Assembly (NCBI RefSeq): GCF_027924185.1
Contig: NZ_BRVO01000004.1
Location: forward strand, 186,001-250,000
Length of the DNA: 64,000 nt
Reading direction: 5' to 3'
Source of the DNA: Neptunitalea lumnitzerae
GTDB lineage: Bacteria; Bacteroidota; Bacteroidia; Flavobacteriales; Flavobacteriaceae
This document shows positions 19,857 through 48,869 of this stretch, one piece after another (the stretch's first letter is position 1; each line of letters begins with the position of its first letter). A program made the translations under genes and the position numbers. The notes beneath the pieces were generated by a model that saw only the letters and a program-made list of their open reading frames with translations, searched no databases and was not told the origin of the DNA.

Positions 19857-20111
19857 TAAAAGCAACTTCTTATAGCCTCACATTCAACAGAAAATATCCA
19901 CACCACTTACTTAACGATTTGTCAAAAGATGTTAAACCTACTTAAATAATCGCTACTACTCAATGTCATTATAACAAGATTCAAATTAAAAATCATAATT
20001 TTACTGCATTATCAAATTACAACACCCCGAGCATTGTCTCGATTTTAAAAAAAAGATGCTTGTAGTTATTTTATGCGCACAGTAAAAAACAACTACAATA
20101 GCCACCTTACT

Positions 20112-40400: not shown

Positions 40401-40832
40401 TCTGAAAACTATGAAAGTAGAAATTATGAAATAGATGGATATAGTCTAGCACCTAAAATAAGTTACTTCTTTTCATTAAATAGTAAGTTAGATTTAACTT
40501 ACCAGTACCAAAATAAGCAAAACCAAACAGGTAATTTAGACAATTTAAAGCAGCATAATTTAGGGGTGTCTTTCAATTATGCCAATGCACAAAAAATATC
40601 GCTTAGTGGAGAAGTAGACTTCTACCAAAATACTTTTGAAGGTAATGCCTATTCCGCAGTAGGGTATCAAATATTAGAAGGATTACAAGAAGGGAAAAAC
40701 TTTACTTGGACATTACTAGCTCAAAAACAACTCACCAAATTTTTAGACCTGAACATATCCTATTATGGTAGAAGGTCAGAAAACTCAAACACCATACATA
40801 CAGGTACCATACAATTGAAAGCCTATTTCTAG
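37416..40832 (+). CDS. Very large putative outer-membrane beta-barrel protein, unknown family
   Basis: A 1138-residue protein with signal peptide MRKLLLLCICFIGWTLQAQ. The first 130 residues look like small beta-domains. From about 140 on the sequence is dominated by alternating strands: TTGSISRGVTVGNNQNAV, LDLQISGKLANDITLRASI, NWGIRAGDINLQ, YVIDYSTGEVTFT, and at the end ISYYGRRSENSNTIHTGTI and QLKAYF with a terminal Phe, as in outer-membrane barrels. No TonB box or plug signature is seen. The repeated 'DYSTGEVTF'-like strand also occurs in other large Bacteroidota surface proteins, but I cannot name a family. It is divergent from xth, and its stop overlaps that of the ankyrin gene. Confidence 0.72.
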   Translation: MRKLLLLCICFIGWTLQAQEISSNYKTKKTAVTGTITLDTVPINNTFLEIYNLQQEPIDSSLFTVDFNTATVNFTPEALILLDSVQINYLNYPDFITKSYSAIDPKLIVPSNNKLTTLYALQQPKKEQVNLFDGLNTTGSISRGVTVGNNQNAVLNSQLDLQISGKLANDITLRASIRDDNIPIQSNGYSQRAREFDQIFVEIESTNWGIRAGDINLQNSNTYFMNYTKKVQGLLLNANLTPNRDSNTEVFASGAVVRGVYTSVNFTGEEGNQGPYNLSGSSSELYVIVVSGSERVYVNGVLLQRGENNDYVIDYSTGEVTFTAKYPITSDMRIRIEYQYTDYNYTRYVTYNGVKHTNDKLTFGAYIYSENDAKNRPVQANLSEEQIAILQQAGNNTDLMTAPSAMENTYNENQVQYTTNVVNGEQIYVYSADENATLYNVTFTYVGANEGNYVLSTTLATGKVYEYVAPINGIKQGDYDPITTLTPPTKLQMAVVNGSYRPTEKTTVSFEGAVSNKDENLFSDLDDENNTGLAGKITFEQKLVDSITKINVFANIDYIDENFESIERIYNIEFNRDWNIDITPTAQQNLMTAGINYANPKTGNAQYKFEYLDLKGYTQGGRHVGIANLKLNNLAISTNSSYLTSDGEITSSNFARTYTRAAYSFKKQWIGGRFNYENNQQTEKVTNTLTNLSQRYKEYQVFTGIGDSLQVFAEIGYKHRVTDSILNNSLQKYNTSHTYYINSQLIKNENTNLAAYISYRNFIYETTNTEDENSLNSRIQYNQRLWKGFTQLSTVYETNAGTIAQQEFSYVEVEAGQGTYTWNDYNNNGIQEIDEFEVAQFQDEATYLRVFLPNQTYVNTHQSKISQTLTLNPGTWGQSKTKMGTWVRRLYNQTSLLIDRKTRREGNNFDLNPFGNTSSDDVLGLSQSFQNTVFYNRGKQKYTTAYTYLNTKTKTLLAVGAQESSIQSHQTQFAHQINSFWLASFTGKTTITSSMSENYESRNYEIDGYSLAPKISYFFSLNSKLDLTYQYQNKQNQTGNLDNLKQHNLGVSFNYANAQKISLSGEVDFYQNTFEGNAYSAVGYQILEGLQEGKNFTWTLLAQKQLTKFLDLNISYYGRRSENSNTIHTGTIQLKAYF

Positions 40833-41311
40833 TTTTCTAATAATTCTGCTATATCGTTTAACCCTTGAAGTTTTGCCTGCATTAAGGCAGTATTGCCACG
40901 AGTATCCTTAATGGTTTTATCAGCGTTGTTATCCAATAGCAATAATAAAATTTCCTTATTGGCAAACGTAGCTGCATATACCAAGGCTGTTGCTCCGTTA
41001 GCATTGGTAGCGTTAACATTAGCCCCTGAAGCTATTAAAAAGGCTACCACATCTTTATAACCTTTAAAACAAGCCCCCATCATAGCTGTATTACCAGAAT
41101 AATCTTTATCGTCAATATTAGCTCCGTTTTCCAGTAATAATTTTACAATAGGTAACGCATCATAATAAGCAGCCAATATAAGTGGTGTAGATCCTCTTTG
41201 GTCTCTTACATTTACCAATTCAGGCTGTACATCAATTAAATTAGCTACTTTCTCAGCATCTCCATTTCGTATGGCATTAAAAAACTTATCTAACAAGGTA
41301 TTACTTTCCAT
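40829..41311 (-). CDS. Ankyrin-repeat protein paired with catalase
   Basis: A 160-residue protein with about four ankyrin repeats, for example NVRDQRGSTPLILAAYYDAL, NIDDKDYSGNTAMMGACFKG, NVNATNANGATALVYAATFA and DKTIKDTRGNTALMQAKLQG. The start MESNTLLDKFFNAIRNGD at 41311 matches the family; the frame continues ten codons upstream without a typical N-terminus. It lies downstream of katA on the same strand. In Pseudomonas an ankyrin protein encoded next to catalase supports full catalase activity, so an accessory role for KatA is a reasonable inference. Its stop overlaps the convergent gene's stop in CTAG. Confidence 0.9.
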   Translation of the reverse strand: MESNTLLDKFFNAIRNGDAEKVANLIDVQPELVNVRDQRGSTPLILAAYYDALPIVKLLLENGANIDDKDYSGNTAMMGACFKGYKDVVAFLIASGANVNATNANGATALVYAATFANKEILLLLLDNNADKTIKDTRGNTALMQAKLQGLNDIAELLEN

Positions 41312-41401
41312 AACATATTTTTTTTTAAAATAACCCGGCATTATACTTTTACATCTTAAAGGTATGACACCAAACCAGTAAAGAATTTTCTAAGAAACAA
41401 T

Positions 41402-41442
41402 TTCAAGGCAAGCCTAGCAACAGTTAATCTCGATGATCGAGT
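41402..41442. repeat. Hairpin/palindrome element, copy 1 (katA-ankyrin gap)
   Basis: TTCAAGG, 15 nt, then TTAATCTCGATGATCGAGT. The end is a 13-nt palindrome, CTCGATGATCGAG (41429-41441), and the first part can form a small imperfect hairpin (CAAGG/CCTAG, with one A-A mismatch). A second copy with the same spacing lies at 46813-46853. Around this copy GAATTTTC (41383-41390) can also pair with GAAAATTC (41451-41458), enclosing the whole element. Function unknown. Confidence 0.6.
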
Positions 41443-41525
41443 TGGGAGGTGAAAATTCAATTCGTATGTATGCCGGGCGCATTACAACAATTTTATTTCA
41501 ACATTGGTACATCAAATTCATTTCT

Positions 41526-42968
41526 TTAGGCTAATCCTAAAGCTTTTCTAACACCTGCACCGTACTCAGGATCTGCACCATCAAAATGCACCAATTGTCT
41601 TTCTACAATTTCTATTGGCACACCCGCCATAGCCTCTGCTATGTTAGAAAACAAACGCTCTTTTTGTTCAGTACTAAACATTCTAAACAAATCTCCTGGT
41701 TGCTTATAATTTCCTATTACATCCTGATCTTCATATCTGGTAATATCACCATCTATCTTCATTGGAGGTTCTTGAGCAGAAGGGTCTTCTACAGGACCAT
41801 CAAAGGAGTTAGGCTCATAATAAGCGTCTGGATTACCAGAGTTATTATCAAAAAATCGCATCGAACCATCTTTATGGTAATGATTGACTTCACTAATAGG
41901 TGCATTTGCCGGTAAAGCCTCATAATGTGTACCTAAACGGTGTCTGTGTGCATCTGCATAAGAGAATATTCTTGCTTGTAACAATTTATCAGGTGAAAAA
42001 GCAATACCAGGAACAATGTTAGAAGGAGAAAATGCTGCATTTTCTATATACTGAAAATAATTATCAGGATTATAGTTTAGTTCCATTTCTCCAACGTCTA
42101 ACAATGGATAATCGGCATGTGGCCACACTCTGGTAATATCAAATGGGTTATATGGGGTATTAGTAGCTTCTTCTTCCGGCATAATTTGAACTTGTACTTT
42201 CCATTTCGGGAAGTTTCCTTCTTCAATAGCACCAAATAATTGCTCTTGGTAAGACTCTCTAGTTTTACCCACAACTTTTTCTGCTTCAGCATTGGTTAAA
42301 AATTCATGTCCTTGCTGAGTTTTAAAATGAAACTTAACCCAAAAGCGTTCACCCTCATTATTCCAAAAAGAATAGGTATGCGACCCATAACCATTCATGT
42401 GCATTGGCGATTTTGGCAATCCTCTATCAGACATTAAGATGGTAACCTGGTGCAAACTTTCAGGTGTTAACGACCAAAAATCCCACATGGCAGTTGCAGA
42501 TCGCATATTTGTTTTTGGATGTCTTTTCTGAGTTCTAATAAAATCTGGAAACTTATACCCGTCTCTTACAAAAAAAACAGGGGTATTATTCCCTACTAAA
42601 TCCCAATTTCCTTCCTCTGTATAAAATTTTAAAGCAAAACCTCTTACATCTCTTTCAGCATCGGCAGCTCCTTGTTCACCAGCCACTGTAGAAAAACGTG
42701 CTAACATTTTGGTTTGTTTCCCTACTTCCGAAAAAATCTTGGCTTTGGTATATTTAGAAATATCATGTGTTACGGTAAACGTACCAAAGGCTCCCCATCC
42801 TTTTGCATGCACAACACGCTCTGGTATGCGCTCTCTGTTTTGGTGAGCTAACTTTTCTATTAATTGATAATCTTGTAACAAAACAGGACCTCTGTTTCCT
42901 GCGGTTAAAGATTTCTGATTATTGGGTACCGGAGCACCGGCAGTTGTAGTTAATTTTTTTGAACTCAT
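41526..42968 (-). CDS. katA: Heme catalase (monofunctional, small-subunit type)
   Basis: Breaks down hydrogen peroxide in the cytosol. At 480 residues it is a small-subunit catalase. Active-site features visible are His54 in [12 protein letters not shown], the Asn in [14 protein letters not shown], and the heme-ligand tyrosine in [14 protein letters not shown]. No signal peptide is present. A TATATTTG box lies 22-29 nt upstream. The ankyrin gene follows after about 214 nt, with the hairpin/palindrome element in between. Confidence 0.97.
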
Positions 42969-42989
42969 GGCTTACTATTTTTATTGAAA

Positions 42990-42997
42990 CAAATATA
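42990..42997 (-). promoter_or_regulatory. -7 promoter element of katA
   Basis: Reverse strand reads TATATTTG, a full TAnnTTTG match, with TTTTTG about 22 nt further upstream as a possible -33 element. Confidence 0.6.
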
Positions 42998-43068
42998 AAT
43001 AGTTAAACACTATCAGAAACAAAAACATTATAGATATAAACTATACATAGATAAAACCCCCCTATAAA

Positions 43069-43100
43069 CAAAAAGACCTCTTAATAAATAAGAGGTCTTT
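43069..43100 (-). terminator. Intrinsic terminator after nhaA
   Basis: AAAGACCTCTTA (43072-43083) pairs with TAAGAGGTCTTT (43089-43100). On the reverse strand a T-run follows. It ends 22 nt after the nhaA stop. Confidence 0.85.
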
Positions 43101-43121
43101 ATATTTATATGATAAAGTATG

Positions 43122-44450
43122 CTATACTTCCTGCTCTACTATTTCTTTAGCCCCTTTTCCAATTACAATTTTTAAAACAACATACCCAATAATACAAGCA
43201 ATAAAAGAACCAGCCAAGATTCCTATTTTAGCTGAACTAAGTAACGAAGGTGATGTAAAAGCAAGGTTGGCAATAAACAATGACATGGTGAAACCTAGTC
43301 CACCTAAGAAACCAGCACCTATGATATGCTTAAAATTAACCCCATTAGGTAAATGTGCTATACCTGCCTTAACCGATAAGAACGAAGCCAACGAGATACC
43401 TACCACTTTACCTACAATAAGGGCTATGGCAATATGAAAAACTAAGTCATACTCTATAGCAGCGTCTCCAGTAAAGTTTACCCCTGCATTGGCAAAGGCA
43501 AATATGGGCATAATTACAAATGTTACCCAAGGATGTAAATCGTGCTCTATTTTTTGCAAAGGTGAGTTAATAAGCTCTGAAGCTTTTTTAAGAGTATGTG
43601 CAGCATCTACACGTTCCTCATCCATAATATGGTGACTCTCTAAATGTTCTTTATTCTGCACAAAACTCTGCACTGAATTTTGAATTTTATCAAAAAACTT
43701 ATCTAAAGTTGTTTGTCTGGTTGCCGGGATGGTAAATGCTAACAATACTCCAGCAATAGTTGGGTGAATACCAGACTTTAAAAAGAATATCCATACCACT
43801 ACACTTAACGGAAAGAAAATGTAACGCGAAAAATATTTTTTAACACCTAGGAATGCCATAAACCCTAAAATAATACCAGCGTACATAAGTAAATCCCATT
43901 GGATGTCCGATCCGTAGAAAATTGCAATCACAATAACAGCTGCTAAATCGTCTACTATAGCAAACGCCGTTAGGAACACTTTTAGCCCTAATGGAACTCG
44001 TTTACCAAATAATTGTAAAATCCCTAAAGAAAAGGCTATATCAGTAGCCATAGGTATTCCCCATCCTTTGGCTGTATCTGGGTTAGAGTTTAGTAATAAA
44101 TAAATAACTATAGGCACAATAACCCCACCTAAAGCAGCAATTACGGGTAACGATGCCTTCTGCATCGTTTTCAGCTCTCCATCTAAAATTTCCCGTTTAA
44201 TTTCAAGTCCTACATGAAAAAAGAACACGGCCATTAAACCATCATTTATCCACAAATAAAAGGGTTCCGTAAGCTCTATGCCATTCTCAATAAAACCAAA
44301 AGTAAATTCACTATTTAAAAATTCTGTGTAATAATGATGCCAAGGTGAGTTGGCAACTATGAGCGCGAGGGCGGTAGCAAAAAGTAAAAGAAAACTCCCT
44401 GAGTTAGAAGATTTCATAAAACTATCTACCGGCTTAAGTATTTTGTTCAT
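43122..44450 (-). CDS. nhaA: Na+/H+ antiporter NhaA
   Basis: Inner-membrane antiporter that expels sodium in exchange for protons. The 442 residues show twelve helices. The essential acidic residues are in PMATDIAFSLGIL (Asp137) and FAIVDDLAAVIVIA (Asp167/168). Other family blocks are FFFHVGLEIKREILDGEL and GAGFLGGLGFTMSLFIANLAF. A soluble loop of about 50 residues (270-300) is longer than in E. coli NhaA. It is a single-gene transcript with its own terminator and fits a marine lifestyle (inference). Confidence 0.96.
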   Translation of the reverse strand: MNKILKPVDSFMKSSNSGSFLLLFATALALIVANSPWHHYYTEFLNSEFTFGFIENGIELTEPFYLWINDGLMAVFFFHVGLEIKREILDGELKTMQKASLPVIAALGGVIVPIVIYLLLNSNPDTAKGWGIPMATDIAFSLGILQLFGKRVPLGLKVFLTAFAIVDDLAAVIVIAIFYGSDIQWDLLMYAGIILGFMAFLGVKKYFSRYIFFPLSVVVWIFFLKSGIHPTIAGVLLAFTIPATRQTTLDKFFDKIQNSVQSFVQNKEHLESHHIMDEERVDAAHTLKKASELINSPLQKIEHDLHPWVTFVIMPIFAFANAGVNFTGDAAIEYDLVFHIAIALIVGKVVGISLASFLSVKAGIAHLPNGVNFKHIIGAGFLGGLGFTMSLFIANLAFTSPSLLSSAKIGILAGSFIACIIGYVVLKIVIGKGAKEIVEQEV

Positions 44451-44742
44451 TTGTTTAAATTTAGGTACAATTTACGAATAAGTGTAATTTTTCGTATATG
44501 ATTAACGTCATTTTATTATTAATTCATAATCTTTATTAAAACCATCAAAGCATTTGGTTTTAACTTAAAAAAATGTTAAAAACCTAACCCTAAAAATTAA
44601 ACTCTTTAGATTAAAAAATTCTTTATCTAGAATATTTCTTAATAAAACATTTGACTGTTTTCTGCTATTTTATACCTTAGCCAACGCTATTATTTGTATT
44701 GATAATCTTCTTACAAGATTACCAAATCAGTAAATCAACCAA

Positions 44743-46572
44743 ATGAAAAAAATCAGTTTTTTTATAGGACTAGCATTAGGCTATACCATGATTGCCAATG
44801 CACAGGATCAAACCCCTAAAGAAAAAGAAGAAAACCTAGAAGAGGTGGTAGTTTCCTCTACCCGAATTGACCTTCCGTTTCCTGAAAACAGCCGAACCAT
44901 TCAGGTAATTACCGCAACAGACATCAAACAAAGTGGTGCTACTACGGTTGTAGAGGCATTACAGCAAGTTGCTGGGGTAGATATTAGACAACGTGGTTTA
45001 AAAGGATCACAAGCCGACTTGTATATAAGAGGTGGTAGTTTTGACCAAACCTTACTATTGATAGACGGTATTAAAGTAGAAGATGCACAAACAGGCCATC
45101 ATTCTTTAAACTTAGCATTACCTATTGAAGTTATAGAACGCATTGAAATTATAAAAGGGCCTGCTGCAAGGGTGTTTGGACAAAATGCTTTTACCGGTGC
45201 AGTAAACATTGTAACCAAAACTAAACCAGAAAAAATGGTGAAAGTAGCTGCTGAAACGGGCTCTTTCCACCAACTAAACGGAAATGTTACTATTGGTACC
45301 GATTTTGAAAAATCTTCGCATGTTGTGAGCTACCAAAGAAATAGGTCTGAAGGTTACAGATATAATACTGATTTTGACAATCAAACGTATTTTGTAAAAA
45401 GTACCTTTAATAAAAACCACAACCCTATTAATGTAATAGCCACCTTAGCAGAGCGTAAGTTTGGTGCTAACGGATTTTATGCAACTCCTGCCGCTACCGA
45501 CCAATATGAAGAAACAAAAGCTAGTTTGGTAGGTGTTTCTACTATTATTGAAAAAGGAAACCTTACCTTAAAGCCACGAGCCTACTGGAGACGTAACGAG
45601 GATATGTATTTATACATTAGAAATAATCCGCCTGCATACCGAAACTTACATATTACCAATAAGGTAGGTACAGAAGTGAATGCCGCCTACAAAAGTGATT
45701 TAGGGGTAACTGGGTTTGGTGTAGATGTGGCTAAAGTATTTATATCAAGTAATAACCTAGGTGATAACAACCGTTTTATGACGAATGTTTTCCTAGAACA
45801 TCAGTTTAATTTGTTGAACGATAAATTAGATATTACGCCAGGTGTTGCCGTTAATTATTTTTCAGATTTTAAATTTCATGCCTTTCCGGGTATTGATGTA
45901 GGCTATGTTATTACCGATTACATTAAAGCATATGCGAACGTTGGATACACATACAGAGTACCTACCTATACAGATTTATACTATACTTCTGCTACTACCA
46001 TTGGTAACAGTAATCTTGACACTGAAGAAGCTTTATCTGAAGAAATAGGAATTAAATATTTAGCACCTAATTTTCAGGTTACCCTAGCAGGTTTTAATCG
46101 TGATGCTAAAAAGTTAATTGATTACGTAAAAGAAAATGAAGCCGACCTATGGCAAGCGCAAAACATTAGAGATGTACAATCATTAGGTTTTGAAGCAGAA
46201 GTAACCTATCATTTCAACATAGGAGACTTTAAAAACACTTTAAAGTCGGGCTATATGTATTTAGATGATGATGTTAAGAATTTAGACCTTAACTATTCTC
46301 AATACTCTATCAACTCTACCAAGCACCATTTTACAGCATCTTACAGATCGCAGTTTATTAAAAACCTTAGTCAAGTAATTAGTTACCGATATATTGAAAG
46401 AACTTCTGGCTTTGCTTATAAAGTAATTGATGCAGGTATTGCTTATGAAGTACAAAATGCAACTTTTAACATACAGGCAAATAACATATTTAACGAGGAG
46501 TACACCGAGACTAACTTAGTACCTATGCCTAAAGGCAATATCTTATTTGGGTGTAGCTACACATTTAAATAA
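44743..46572 (+). CDS. TonB-dependent outer-membrane receptor (BtuB-like)
   Basis: A 609-residue receptor with signal peptide ending MIANAQ. A TonB-box-like EEVVVSSTRID lies near residue 32, and the plug domain has VVEALQQVAGVDIRQRGLKG, DLYIRGGSFDQTLLLIDGIK and IERIEIIKGPAARVFGQNAFTGAVNIVTK, quoted in segments. The 22-strand barrel ends with GNILFGCSYTFK. The plug and length resemble the vitamin B12/BtuB group, but no cobalamin riboswitch is visible in the 292-nt upstream gap, so the substrate is open. Confidence 0.92.
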   Translation: MKKISFFIGLALGYTMIANAQDQTPKEKEENLEEVVVSSTRIDLPFPENSRTIQVITATDIKQSGATTVVEALQQVAGVDIRQRGLKGSQADLYIRGGSFDQTLLLIDGIKVEDAQTGHHSLNLALPIEVIERIEIIKGPAARVFGQNAFTGAVNIVTKTKPEKMVKVAAETGSFHQLNGNVTIGTDFEKSSHVVSYQRNRSEGYRYNTDFDNQTYFVKSTFNKNHNPINVIATLAERKFGANGFYATPAATDQYEETKASLVGVSTIIEKGNLTLKPRAYWRRNEDMYLYIRNNPPAYRNLHITNKVGTEVNAAYKSDLGVTGFGVDVAKVFISSNNLGDNNRFMTNVFLEHQFNLLNDKLDITPGVAVNYFSDFKFHAFPGIDVGYVITDYIKAYANVGYTYRVPTYTDLYYTSATTIGNSNLDTEEALSEEIGIKYLAPNFQVTLAGFNRDAKKLIDYVKENEADLWQAQNIRDVQSLGFEAEVTYHFNIGDFKNTLKSGYMYLDDDVKNLDLNYSQYSINSTKHHFTASYRSQFIKNLSQVISYRYIERTSGFAYKVIDAGIAYEVQNATFNIQANNIFNEEYTETNLVPMPKGNILFGCSYTFK

Positions 46573-46601
46573 TTTTAGGCTCTTACAAGAGCTACACAAA
46601 C

Positions 46602-46646
46602 AAAAAAAACAGGTTTATTGAATTATTCAATAAACCTGTTTTTTTT
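46602..46646 (+). terminator. Intrinsic terminator after the BtuB-like receptor
   Basis: A 21-bp perfect stem including A/T runs (46602-46622 with 46626-46646), 3-nt loop, core ACAGGTTTATTGAA. Confidence 0.92.
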
Positions 46647-46812
46647 ATAACTACCTATAACAAGCAACAAAGTTTCTTATCTAAATTGTTGAGGAAGTCT
46701 CTTTATATGTTAGGTTAAAGTTTATAAATTGTTAAATTAATATTATACGCTCTCAAATCAAATTTATACTTTAGCGAGCTGAATTAAAAAACTGAGGTTT
46801 AAAGTAACTATC

Positions 46813-46853
46813 TTCAAGGTACATCTTGGAGCATTTAATCTCGATTATCGAGT
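46813..46853. repeat. Hairpin/palindrome element, copy 2 (porin leader)
   Basis: TTCAAGG, 15 nt, then TTAATCTCGATTATCGAGT, ending 7 nt before the porin start at 46861. The palindrome CTCGATTATCGAG is at 46840-46852. The leading part forms CAAG/CTTG (46815-46818 with 46825-46828). The sequence between differs from copy 1, yet a small hairpin can form at the same place. Confidence 0.6.
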
Positions 46854-46860
46854 AAAACCC

Positions 46861-48078
46861 ATGAGAATAATCAGCACCCAACTAACTACATTATTGAGCT
46901 TATTTTGTTTGTGTATTACTGTAATAGGTTTTTCACAAACCAATACCAACGACTCGGTTCCTAAGTTTTCCTTAGACTATGGCAAAAGAGGTTTAGAAAT
47001 AAAATCTTCCGACAATTCATTTTCATTACACCTACAAAGCAGGTTTCAATTTAGGTTTGCAACCCCTAATGATATTGACCCTGTTACATTAGACAATTAC
47101 AACGAGAAAGATAACACACTATTTAAAGTAAACAGAGCCCGTGTAAAAGTAGGAGGACATGCCTACAAAGAATGGCTTAAATACTATTGGGAATACGATA
47201 TTAATCAATCGAACCTATTGGATTATAGAATTATGATTGAAAAATGGAAGTGGCTTAACTTTAAAGTAGGACAATGGAAAGTAGAATATTCTAGAGAACG
47301 ACGAATTAGTAGTGGTGCCCAACAATTAGTAGACCGCTCTATTTTAAACAGGCATTTTACCGTAGACCGCCAACAAGGTGTTGAAGTATATGGTAATCTA
47401 AAAGGCAAAGGCATGTTGAACATGAGCTACTGGGCTGGGGTTTTTACTGGTACAGGTAGAGGAAACCCTGCTAATGACGACCATAACTTAATGTACTTTG
47501 GACGATTACAATGGAATGTATTAGGAGACGATATTGGCTTTAGATCTACTGATTTGACGCTACACAAAACACCCGAAGCCAACATTGCTGCTGCGGTAGT
47601 TACCAATGAAAGTCCGTACACCAGATTTTCAACTTCTGGAGGAGGTGCATTAGAGCGCTTTGAAGAAGGTGAAAATGGCCAGTACAGAGTAAATCAGTTA
47701 AACATAGAAACAGCTTTTGTGTATAATGGCTTTAGCTGGCAATCTGAATTTCATACCAAAGAAATTATAGATAAATATGATAACAACAGCATGACACACA
47801 TGACCGGGTATTATCTTCAGGGAGGTTACCTTGCTCATCAATCTTTTGATTGGTGGCCAAAACCTTTAGAAATTGCAGCTAGATTTGCGCATTACAACCC
47901 CGATAGAAATACCAGTGCTACTAATAACTTACAAGAAAAATCTATTGCTTTCAACTGGTTTTTTAAAAACCACTTAAACAAACTAACACTAGAATGTTCT
48001 TCGTTTGATTATGAAACTCCTGAATTAAATACAAAAAATGAATTTAGATTCAGAATACAGTGGGATATCTCTTTTTAA
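46861..48078 (+). CDS. Phosphate-selective porin O/P-family protein
   Basis: A 405-residue outer-membrane porin with a signal peptide ending VIGFSQ. The body fits the OprO/OprP family: FSLHLQSRFQFRFATP, FKVNRARVKVGGHAYKEWLKYYWEYDI, FKVGQWKVEYSRERRISSG, VDRSILNRHFTVDRQQGVEVYG and the last strand FRFRIQWDISF with terminal Phe. Family members pass phosphate or other anions. The hairpin/palindrome element sits directly at its ribosome-binding position, so translation or transcription may be controlled there (inference). Confidence 0.9.
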   Translation: MRIISTQLTTLLSLFCLCITVIGFSQTNTNDSVPKFSLDYGKRGLEIKSSDNSFSLHLQSRFQFRFATPNDIDPVTLDNYNEKDNTLFKVNRARVKVGGHAYKEWLKYYWEYDINQSNLLDYRIMIEKWKWLNFKVGQWKVEYSRERRISSGAQQLVDRSILNRHFTVDRQQGVEVYGNLKGKGMLNMSYWAGVFTGTGRGNPANDDHNLMYFGRLQWNVLGDDIGFRSTDLTLHKTPEANIAAAVVTNESPYTRFSTSGGGALERFEEGENGQYRVNQLNIETAFVYNGFSWQSEFHTKEIIDKYDNNSMTHMTGYYLQGGYLAHQSFDWWPKPLEIAARFAHYNPDRNTSATNNLQEKSIAFNWFFKNHLNKLTLECSSFDYETPELNTKNEFRFRIQWDISF

Positions 48079-48182: not shown

Positions 48183-48869
48183 ATGTTACAAGCTATAAAA
48201 AACATAACTAACATTTTCTTTCCTAAAACCTGTCCGGGTTGCAACAACTATTTAGACCTTTCGCAACACACCTTATGTTTAGATTGCAGACATACACTAG
48301 GTATTACAAATTTTCATGAAGACACCGAGAATATATTGGCAAGAACTTTGTACGGTAAATGCAGCATAGAAAATGCTACTGCAATGTTTATATTTAAAAA
48401 AGAAAGTACGGTACAACACCTTATTCACAACTTAAAATACAAAGGGCAACAACAAGTAGGTACCGTATTAGGGGCATGGTATGGCGACCTATTGAAAGAT
48501 GTTCACCGCTTTAAAAATATAGACGCTATTGTACCAGTACCACTACACCCTAGAAGAAAAAGGCAACGCGGGTATAACCAAGTAACCACATTTGCTAAGG
48601 AACTTTCTTTTGCTTTGAAAATTCCTCTAGAAGAAGACATTCTTATTAGAACCAGATACACCAAAACACAAACTTTTAAAAACCGACTTTTGCGCCAGTA
48701 TAAAAAAGAGGTTTTTGATGTACACCCCAATAACTTTAGAACCCCTAAACATATATTATTGGTAGATGATGTAATAACCACTGGCGCTACTATTATTAGC
48801 TGTGTAAAGGTGTTACAAAAAATACCCAACGTAAAGGTATCTGTAGCAGCAATAGCTTTTACAGAATGA
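48183..48869 (+). CDS. ComF-family phosphoribosyltransferase-like protein
   Basis: A 228-residue cytosolic protein. An N-terminal four-cysteine zinc-binding unit, CPGCNNYL and LCLDC, is followed by a type I phosphoribosyltransferase domain with the PRPP-binding loop HILLVDDVITTGATI and VPVPLHPRRKRQRGYNQ. ComF/GntX proteins are linked to DNA uptake or use in other bacteria, while the enzymatic reaction is unproven. It stands alone, with 52 nt to the following lipoprotein gene. Confidence 0.92.
   Translation: MLQAIKNITNIFFPKTCPGCNNYLDLSQHTLCLDCRHTLGITNFHEDTENILARTLYGKCSIENATAMFIFKKESTVQHLIHNLKYKGQQQVGTVLGAWYGDLLKDVHRFKNIDAIVPVPLHPRRKRQRGYNQVTTFAKELSFALKIPLEEDILIRTRYTKTQTFKNRLLRQYKKEVFDVHPNNFRTPKHILLVDDVITTGATIISCVKVLQKIPNVKVSVAAIAFTE

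Follow-up and report, generated by a model that had tools for sequence, protein, structure and literature searches.

Two look-alike hairpin sequences lie 5.4 kb apart in a 64,000-nt stretch of the Neptunitalea lumnitzerae genome (contig NZ_BRVO01000004.1, positions 186,001 to 250,000; hereafter the window), one between a catalase gene and an ankyrin-repeat gene and the other just upstream of a porin gene. With a probability of about 0.86, both are copies of one non-autonomous family of palindrome-associated transposable elements (PATEs) that derives from, or shares its ends with, the IS200/IS605 group of insertion sequences (ISs). The original prediction had considered a regulator site serving both loci, a cis RNA, or a tiny mobile repeat. 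The last of these is now strongly supported: copies are scattered, lie mostly between genes, differ in presence between two species of the genus, and have transposon-like ends. The window copies are most likely relics of mobile DNA, not a common gene switch.

On rereading the sequence, the two 41-nt copies were located at 41402-41442 and 46813-46853, as described, with 32/41 positions identical overall and 7/15 within the 15-nt spacer. A 19-nt pattern, TTAATCTCGATnATCGAGT, allowed up to three mismatches, matched the window exactly twice against an expectation of 0.06, and none of 100 shuffles reached two matches, which makes a chance origin of the pair unlikely, in agreement with the original prediction. 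A profile made from 25 copies in named genomes was run against a 1.28-Mb search set and recovered copy 1 at 41398-41442 (E 8.9e-6) and copy 2 at 46811-46856 (E 2.8e-7); a covariance model searched against the window gave E values of 8.1e-5 and 4.8e-8, respectively. The element itself reads along the minus strand, and it extends further left than the 41 nt first noted, with copy 2 starting at about 46804 and the left end of copy 1 lying somewhere between 41378 and 41398. Copy 2 is a one-hairpin short form and copy 1 is degenerate. A hairpin had been proposed within the 15-nt part of both copies. It was found to be fair in copy 2 (fold z -2.10), where a stem of 46812-46818 and 46825-46831 surrounds GTACAT and 4/7 pairs appear in the minimum-energy fold, and weak in copy 1 (z -0.68). 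No meaning was found for the 5.4-kb spacing, and the two copies are separate relics. The features of the copies are as follows.

41378..41440, minus strand: copy 1 (degenerate), longest possible extent; profile matches only 41398-41442; covariance model match
41378-41382, minus strand: candidate right cleavage site TTTAC of copy 1
41406..41415, minus strand: weak subterminal hairpin AGGC-AA-GCCT of copy 1, read directly; fold z only -0.68
41429..41441, no strand assigned: terminal hairpin HP3 of copy 1, CTCGATGATCGAG, from pattern counts, folding and sequence reading
46804..46851, minus strand: copy 2, short one-hairpin form, reading TCGATAATCGAG...TAGTTAC on the minus strand; profile and model matches
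46804-46807, minus strand: predicted right cleavage site TTAC of copy 2
46812..46831, minus strand: subterminal hairpin CTTCAAG-GTACAT-CTTGGAG of copy 2, 7 pairs with one wobble
46832..46835, minus strand: putative guide tetranucleotide AATG (plus strand CATT) of copy 2, 5' of the hairpin; sequence reading, with the rule tested on relatives
46840..46852, no strand assigned: terminal hairpin HP3 of copy 2, CTCGATTATCGAG, from pattern counts, folding and sequence reading
46852..46856, minus strand: left flank or target site TTTAC (plus strand GTAAA) of copy 2, separated by 4 nt from the porin ATG (46861)

A possible third, strongly decayed copy was also seen on the minus strand at window positions 20000-20096 (covariance model E 0.015).

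Architecture of the full element

Alignment of the flanks identified the 13-nt palindrome CTCGATnATCGAG as the right end of a larger unit. The full element is ~100 nt long and comprises three hairpins and no gene. Among 75 distinct model matches, 56 measured 100-109 nt, 6 measured 60-69 nt, and the longest fell at 140-149 nt. A length of ~100 nt leaves no room for a transposase; the element does not encode the TnpA-Y1 that an autonomous IS of this type encodes, and related TnpA genes were found only in longer relatives. With slashes marking the borders, the minus-strand layout is TTTAC / hairpin – AATG – hairpin – spacer – AATG – hairpin – TTTAC, and in detail TTTAC / TCGATAATCGAG-ATTT-AAATG-hairpin (left end) – spacer – AATG-hairpin-TAGTTTAC / (right end). 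The consensus of 43 aligned copies, picked from 94 listed references for spread and few gaps, was AGTAAACTACCTCGGGGCAAGCCCACGAGGCATT-spacer-ATTTTGATTTCGAGGCAAGCCTCGGAGCATTTAAATCTCGATTATCGAGTAAA. Alignments and folds revealed no terminal inverted repeats but palindromes close to both termini.

The hairpins covaried. In the 43 copies, changes on both sides were observed in 11/18 pairs, a value reached by 1/500 shuffles; 91% of cells paired, and the covariation score was reached by no shuffle of 500. In the 75 distinct model-picked copies the corresponding figure was 12/14 pairs (0/500 shuffles), in an alignment that, being fitted to the model, is biased towards structure. The terminal hairpin likewise varied by compensatory substitution, reading CTCAATAATTGAG in 11/75 copies. 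On neither strand did G·U pairs outnumber A·C mismatches (plus strand, 29 versus 37 and 39 versus 43), a result that speaks against RNA without picking a strand. When two full copies from an uncultured Maribacter record were folded as single-stranded DNA, three hairpins were obtained, with z values of -2.85 and -1.58. The sister species (genome G001) carries six copies of 60-61 nt in which one hairpin is fused to the terminal hairpin, and window copy 2 has the same build; this short form probably arose by fusion of two hairpin modules via the common GCATT (guide) sequence. Further small palindromes are seemingly nested in hairpin loops at loci L046-L065 (genome G022) and at L147, L155, L157, L159, and L165; in L159, for instance, CCTGTCTGTCCGATAGGCAGG sits at the CAAG loop. 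Palindromes of Haloquadratum PATEs are hit by similar small repeats, as described in the accessible part of PMC3119063.

IS200-like ends and the guide-cleavage code

The likeness to IS200-like sequences was first seen at the Y1 transposase loci of genome G007. Related TnpA genes were present in 40 of 397 Flavobacteriaceae genomes at E<=1e-10 and in 22 at E<=1e-12, and the two that were checked were PF01797 proteins. Out of 68 end segments of TnpA-Y1 loci (33 left and 35 right, duplicates removed), 24 were matched by the element profile at E<=0.1 and 44 were not. All 24 matches had the expected strand and lay no more than 120 nt from tnpA, with 16/16 right-end matches falling on the element's right end and 6/8 left-end matches on its left end. 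The TnpA-Y1 gene between matching ends was intact or decayed. Genomes G141 and G395 held some of the closest IS relatives. Five G141 copies finish in CTAATGCCTCGGGGCTTGCCCCGAGGATTATTTAC and then diverge, the equivalent in the element being CTAATGCCTCGTGGGCTTGCCCCGAGGTAGTTTAC, while four G141 left ends read TTTAT / TCTAGGCGGGTAAATACCCCGAGGCTTGCCTCG where the element reads TTTAC / TCGATAATCGAGATTTAAATGCTCCGAGGCTTGCCTCG. The element was found in 21/40 TnpA-positive genomes versus 74/357 others (Fisher p 4e-5, ignoring genome kinship). The four G141 left ends that were read (L388, L389, L395, and L396) lie in or just after the T-run behind a terminator-like hairpin; a TTTAT target may thus steer this IS into terminators.

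Each hairpin of IS608 has on its 5' side a guide tetranucleotide that base-pairs with the cleavage site, AAAG pairing with TTAC and GAAT with TCAA, according to the part of PMC5934647 available. For the relatives examined here, the hairpin foot was anchored on the conserved CCYCG arm, which was chosen after a first test and omitted 7/35 right and 10/33 left ends. The rule was scored as three Watson-Crick contacts, the last being the pairing of the last guide base, which fits both IS608 pairs. For the first two guide bases, the contacts came from the same part of PMC5934647. Among the anchored right ends, the predicted site was found within 14 nt in 25/28, with 24 at offset 4 or 5; the right end of L306 had it at offset 0 and again at 4. 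The guide/site kinds were GATA/TCAT, AATG/TTAC, and, in one case, AATA/TTAT. Swapped guides scored 38/384, and random guides gave a mean of 1.77 and at most 6 of 28. Among the anchored left ends, the predicted site lay within 30 nt upstream in 20/23 (AATT/TTAA or AATA/TTAT), a count that is uncontrolled, TTAA being common in AT-rich DNA; 15 of these 20 sites were at one same distance. Since many of the IS ends are related, these are far from 45 independent tests, and it is the several kinds of pair that carry the evidence.

In the element itself, CATT (that is, AATG) followed the hairpins in 30/43 and 34/43 copies, the guide at the left end standing 3 nt from the perfect stem, and TTTAC (GTAAA) was present at the right end in 29/43. 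The left TTTAC of the 43-copy set had been part of the search pattern. It bordered 55/75 model-picked copies, for which the model includes those positions, and when copies were retrieved with the 13-nt palindrome alone, GTAAA came next in 36/60 distinct ones. Judged from these sequences, most of the IS relatives and the element obey the IS608 guide rule. By analogy with IS608, a TnpA dimer supplied in trans would bind the hairpins while the strand is single, on the lagging-strand template. The AATG guides would pair with TTAC at both ends, the element would exit as a single-stranded circle, and it would insert 3' of TTTAC without target duplication.

Distribution, genomic context, and probable movement

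The palindrome CTCGATnATCGAG occurred 6 times in the N. lumnitzerae genome (G000, 3.85 Mb) and the same pattern read backwards not at all. It was present in 13/60 genomes (own included), with 14 copies in G001 and 53 in G022; the backward control gave 0 or 1 per genome among the 60. With the covariance model at E<=0.01, the element was detected in 11/60 genomes (own included), with at least 66 matches in both G001 and G022 (66/66 scored candidates each) and 11 in G000. In the survey of 397 genomes, in which nine candidates were scored per genome, it was found in 95 genomes and 70/237 genera (E<=1e-4). A pattern scan of named genomes gave at least 80 records among the matches listed, which we take to be Flavobacteriaceae genera or so labelled (e.g., Salegentibacter, Aquimarina, Maribacter, Winogradskyella, and Zobellia). 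Gene context was obtained for 48 copies (22 from about the first megabase of G022, 14 from G001, 6 from the own genome, and 6 others) using open reading frames (ORFs) called by a simple script. Of these, 42 were intergenic, four lay in ORFs of 71-81 aa, and two lay in longer ORFs, and copies occurred in both orientations relative to genes. Genome-wide counts no better than random, or indifference to intergenic positions, had been named as outcomes that would undermine the original prediction; the count of 6 versus 0 is well above random and 42/48 copies are intergenic.

Presence and absence differed between the two species of the genus. In the sister species, the spacer orthologous to that of copy 1 lacks the element and is locally about 43 nt shorter by hand count on the alignment. 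Conversely, at sites B, C, and D of G001 the orthologous G000 spacers are shorter and without a profile match. All these orthologous spacers, that of copy 1 included, are only loosely alike, so that insertion is indistinguishable from deletion and the junction cannot be fixed. A further site, A, had been chosen from a match gap and was dropped, having no profile match. Four tandem pairs (L034, L038, L142, and L192) share a common 5-nt border, GTAAA or, in L038, GTGAA, which is what insertion of one copy 3' of another copy's bordering TTTAC would produce. In the single-contig chromosome of G022, the lagging-strand template carries the IS top strand of 41/60 copies (p 0.006). The origin at ~1.2 Mb and terminus at ~3.1 Mb were placed from the GC skew of 40 sampled 20-kb pieces alone. 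The 60 copies were those listed of 66 matches, with near-duplicates kept, and strand runs had been noticed before the skew was fetched. A preference for the lagging-strand template is known for IS608 and ISDra2 (PMC6006769, in the part available).

The genes neighbouring the window copies are the following.

40829..41341, minus strand: ankyrin-repeat protein, 170 aa (Ank_2, E 4e-27)
41526..42968, minus strand: catalase, 480 aa (Catalase, E 1.3e-186)
46861..48078, plus strand: Porin_O_P family porin, 405 aa (E 2.4e-15)

Copy 2 makes up the last ~57 nt 5' of the porin start codon, and any effect on porin expression would be a by-product. The porin gene is absent from the orthologous G001 locus, where a homologue of the ORF at window position 48183, presumably comF-like, comes straight after the TonB-receptor gene, and a DNA search with the porin gene found no match in the G001 genome. 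Copy 2 sits at the edge of this G000/G001 difference, which spans window positions 46800-48078. At 46602-46647, 3' of the TonB-receptor gene, AAAACAGGTTTATTGAATTATTCAATAAACCTGTTTT forms a perfect inverted repeat bordered by runs of A and T, likely a terminator.

Alternative explanations and relation to known elements

Several observations weigh against a PATE assignment. Movement is inferred from sequence, no transposition event having been observed, and the orientation bias is moderate and comes from one genome. Copy 1 folds weakly (z -0.68) and has CCAAC (41441-41445) at its left border in place of TTTAC. Two left-end matches (L309 and L312) fall on the wrong part of the profile, and HP3 was not seen in the IS left ends inspected by eye. 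The first guide test, run with a free hairpin finder, scored 9/27 (random guides averaged 2.27 and reached at most 8 over 2000 draws; swapped guides scored 30/652); the low figure arose because T-A pairs past the conserved foot shifted the guide. The distribution of transposases is also awkward. No TnpA of the matching type was found in G000 or G001 at E<=1e-10 or E<=1e-12; the sole PF01797 match in G000 is RAYT-like (see below), and G001 has decayed PF01797 remnants only. G022 is not among the TnpA positives and gave no match to PF01797 at E<=0.001, even though G001 and G022 are richest in copies, and the IS-bearing G141 has no element at E<=1e-4. In the element-bearing loci examined, no Y1 gene was found outside loci chosen for Y1. 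Orphan populations are usual for elements resembling miniature inverted-repeat transposable elements. There is an outside chance that the family is a transposase-orphan PATE, amplified to dozens of copies in genomes that have no intact recognisable TnpA-Y1 of its type (none in G022, decayed in G001) and now mobilised by some host enzyme or unrelated HUH enzyme, with HP3 as a new recognition feature.

An element of the repetitive extragenic palindromic (REP) or bacterial interspersed mosaic element type, served by a REP-associated tyrosine transposase (RAYT, TnpA-REP) and not by an IS200-type TnpA, would also consist of hairpins with a 5' tetranucleotide scattered between genes. The Bacteroidetes TnpA-REP subclass 2.6 is flanked by atypical structures (PMC6006769, in the part available), and the own genome carries a 2.6-like RAYT. 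That RAYT has different flanking repeats, however, and homologues were not found in G001 or G022, which have the most copies, but were found in the element-negative G008, G011, and G020, while the element ends match IS200-type ends. A RAYT/REP identity was rejected after PF01797 and RAYT searches gave no linkage and an opposite distribution, and is regarded as improbable. The RAYT-like Y1 gene itself (181 aa, SHIH...YIHQNP) is at about 393324-394674 of contig C3 of G000 (L071 735-2085). It is flanked by CTACTAGCGTGACGCTAGCAGGA, four upstream and one downstream, in an arrangement that resembles a TnpA-REP 2.6 REPtron and is unrelated to the element.

Slightly less credible again is an operator, with CTCGATnATCGAG bound by a transcription factor common to the catalase/ankyrin and porin loci. 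The palindrome is near-perfect over 13 bp, intergenic, and often no more than 60 nt away from where the next called ORF starts, and some copies have no other hairpin recognisable by eye. Yet it changes by compensation (CTCAATAATTGAG, as above) instead of keeping its bases, and such covariation speaks against a regulator site; it is joined to transposon-like ends, and copy 1 is absent from the orthologous sister-species site. With unrelated genes next to them and as unequal truncated forms of a dispersed element, the window copies do not bear out the regulator site of the original prediction. A structured cis RNA or small RNA would account for three covarying hairpins and for the position of copy 2, which would fall in the porin leader. 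The lack of a G·U excess is unlike a selected RNA helix, and copies stand in both orientations relative to genes. At the Rfam gathering score the window gave only tRNA and 12 element loci gave nothing, and a sub-threshold search of four loci was empty; 13 sub-threshold Rfam matches were judged to be chance. The RNA reading finds no support and is the least probable of those considered.

The family, taken as a PATE, is a fresh case of a known kind of element. As far as the available parts of the sources describe them, PATEs are known from haloarchaea (PMC3119063), with one PATE-like copy from a bacterium (PMC7290912). According to the accessible part of PMC3119063, the PATEs of Haloquadratum walsbyi likewise lack terminal inverted repeats, have subterminal IS605-type palindromes, are too short for a transposase, and are flanked by a target oligonucleotide. 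They also include terminal-only 52-bp forms produced by repeat-mediated deletion, comparable to the short forms here, carry small repeats nested in their palindromes, and coexist with largely broken IS200-type transposase genes. The present element differs in belonging to Bacteroidota, not archaea, with one family across 70 sampled genera, in using AATG as guide and TTAC as site at either end, and in an additional hairpin directly next to the left cleavage site; duplication-free insertion is a putative trait here. The PATE-like sequence of Halanaerobium hydrogeniformans is also an ends-only IS605 derivative in a bacterium but, in the part of PMC7290912 available, is a single 271-nt copy, in contrast to the dispersed ~100- and 60-nt family. 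With IS608 and the IS200/IS605 group (PMC5934647 and PMC6006769, each in part), the element shares subterminal hairpins, a 5' guide, guide-cleavage pairing, a TTAC target, and a lagging-strand preference, but it has neither tnpA nor tnpB, and the guides and sites of IS608 differ between its two ends. Intergenic hairpins with a 5' tetranucleotide and a high copy number are shared with the REP sequences and REPINs of RAYTs (PMC6006769, in the part available), whereas the element has no RAYT linkage or co-occurrence and combines a terminal hairpin with two distinct IS-like ends.

A PATE family of such spread in Bacteroidota was not found in the published literature searched. The assignment accounts for a class of hairpins repeated between genes across a large bacterial family, which might otherwise pass for operators or riboregulators, and names a probable type of mobiliser for them. 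With a code that is readable in natural variants (GATA/TCAT, AATG/TTAC, AATA/TTAT, and AATT/TTAA), the family and its relatives would provide a natural test of target change in the IS200/IS605 group.

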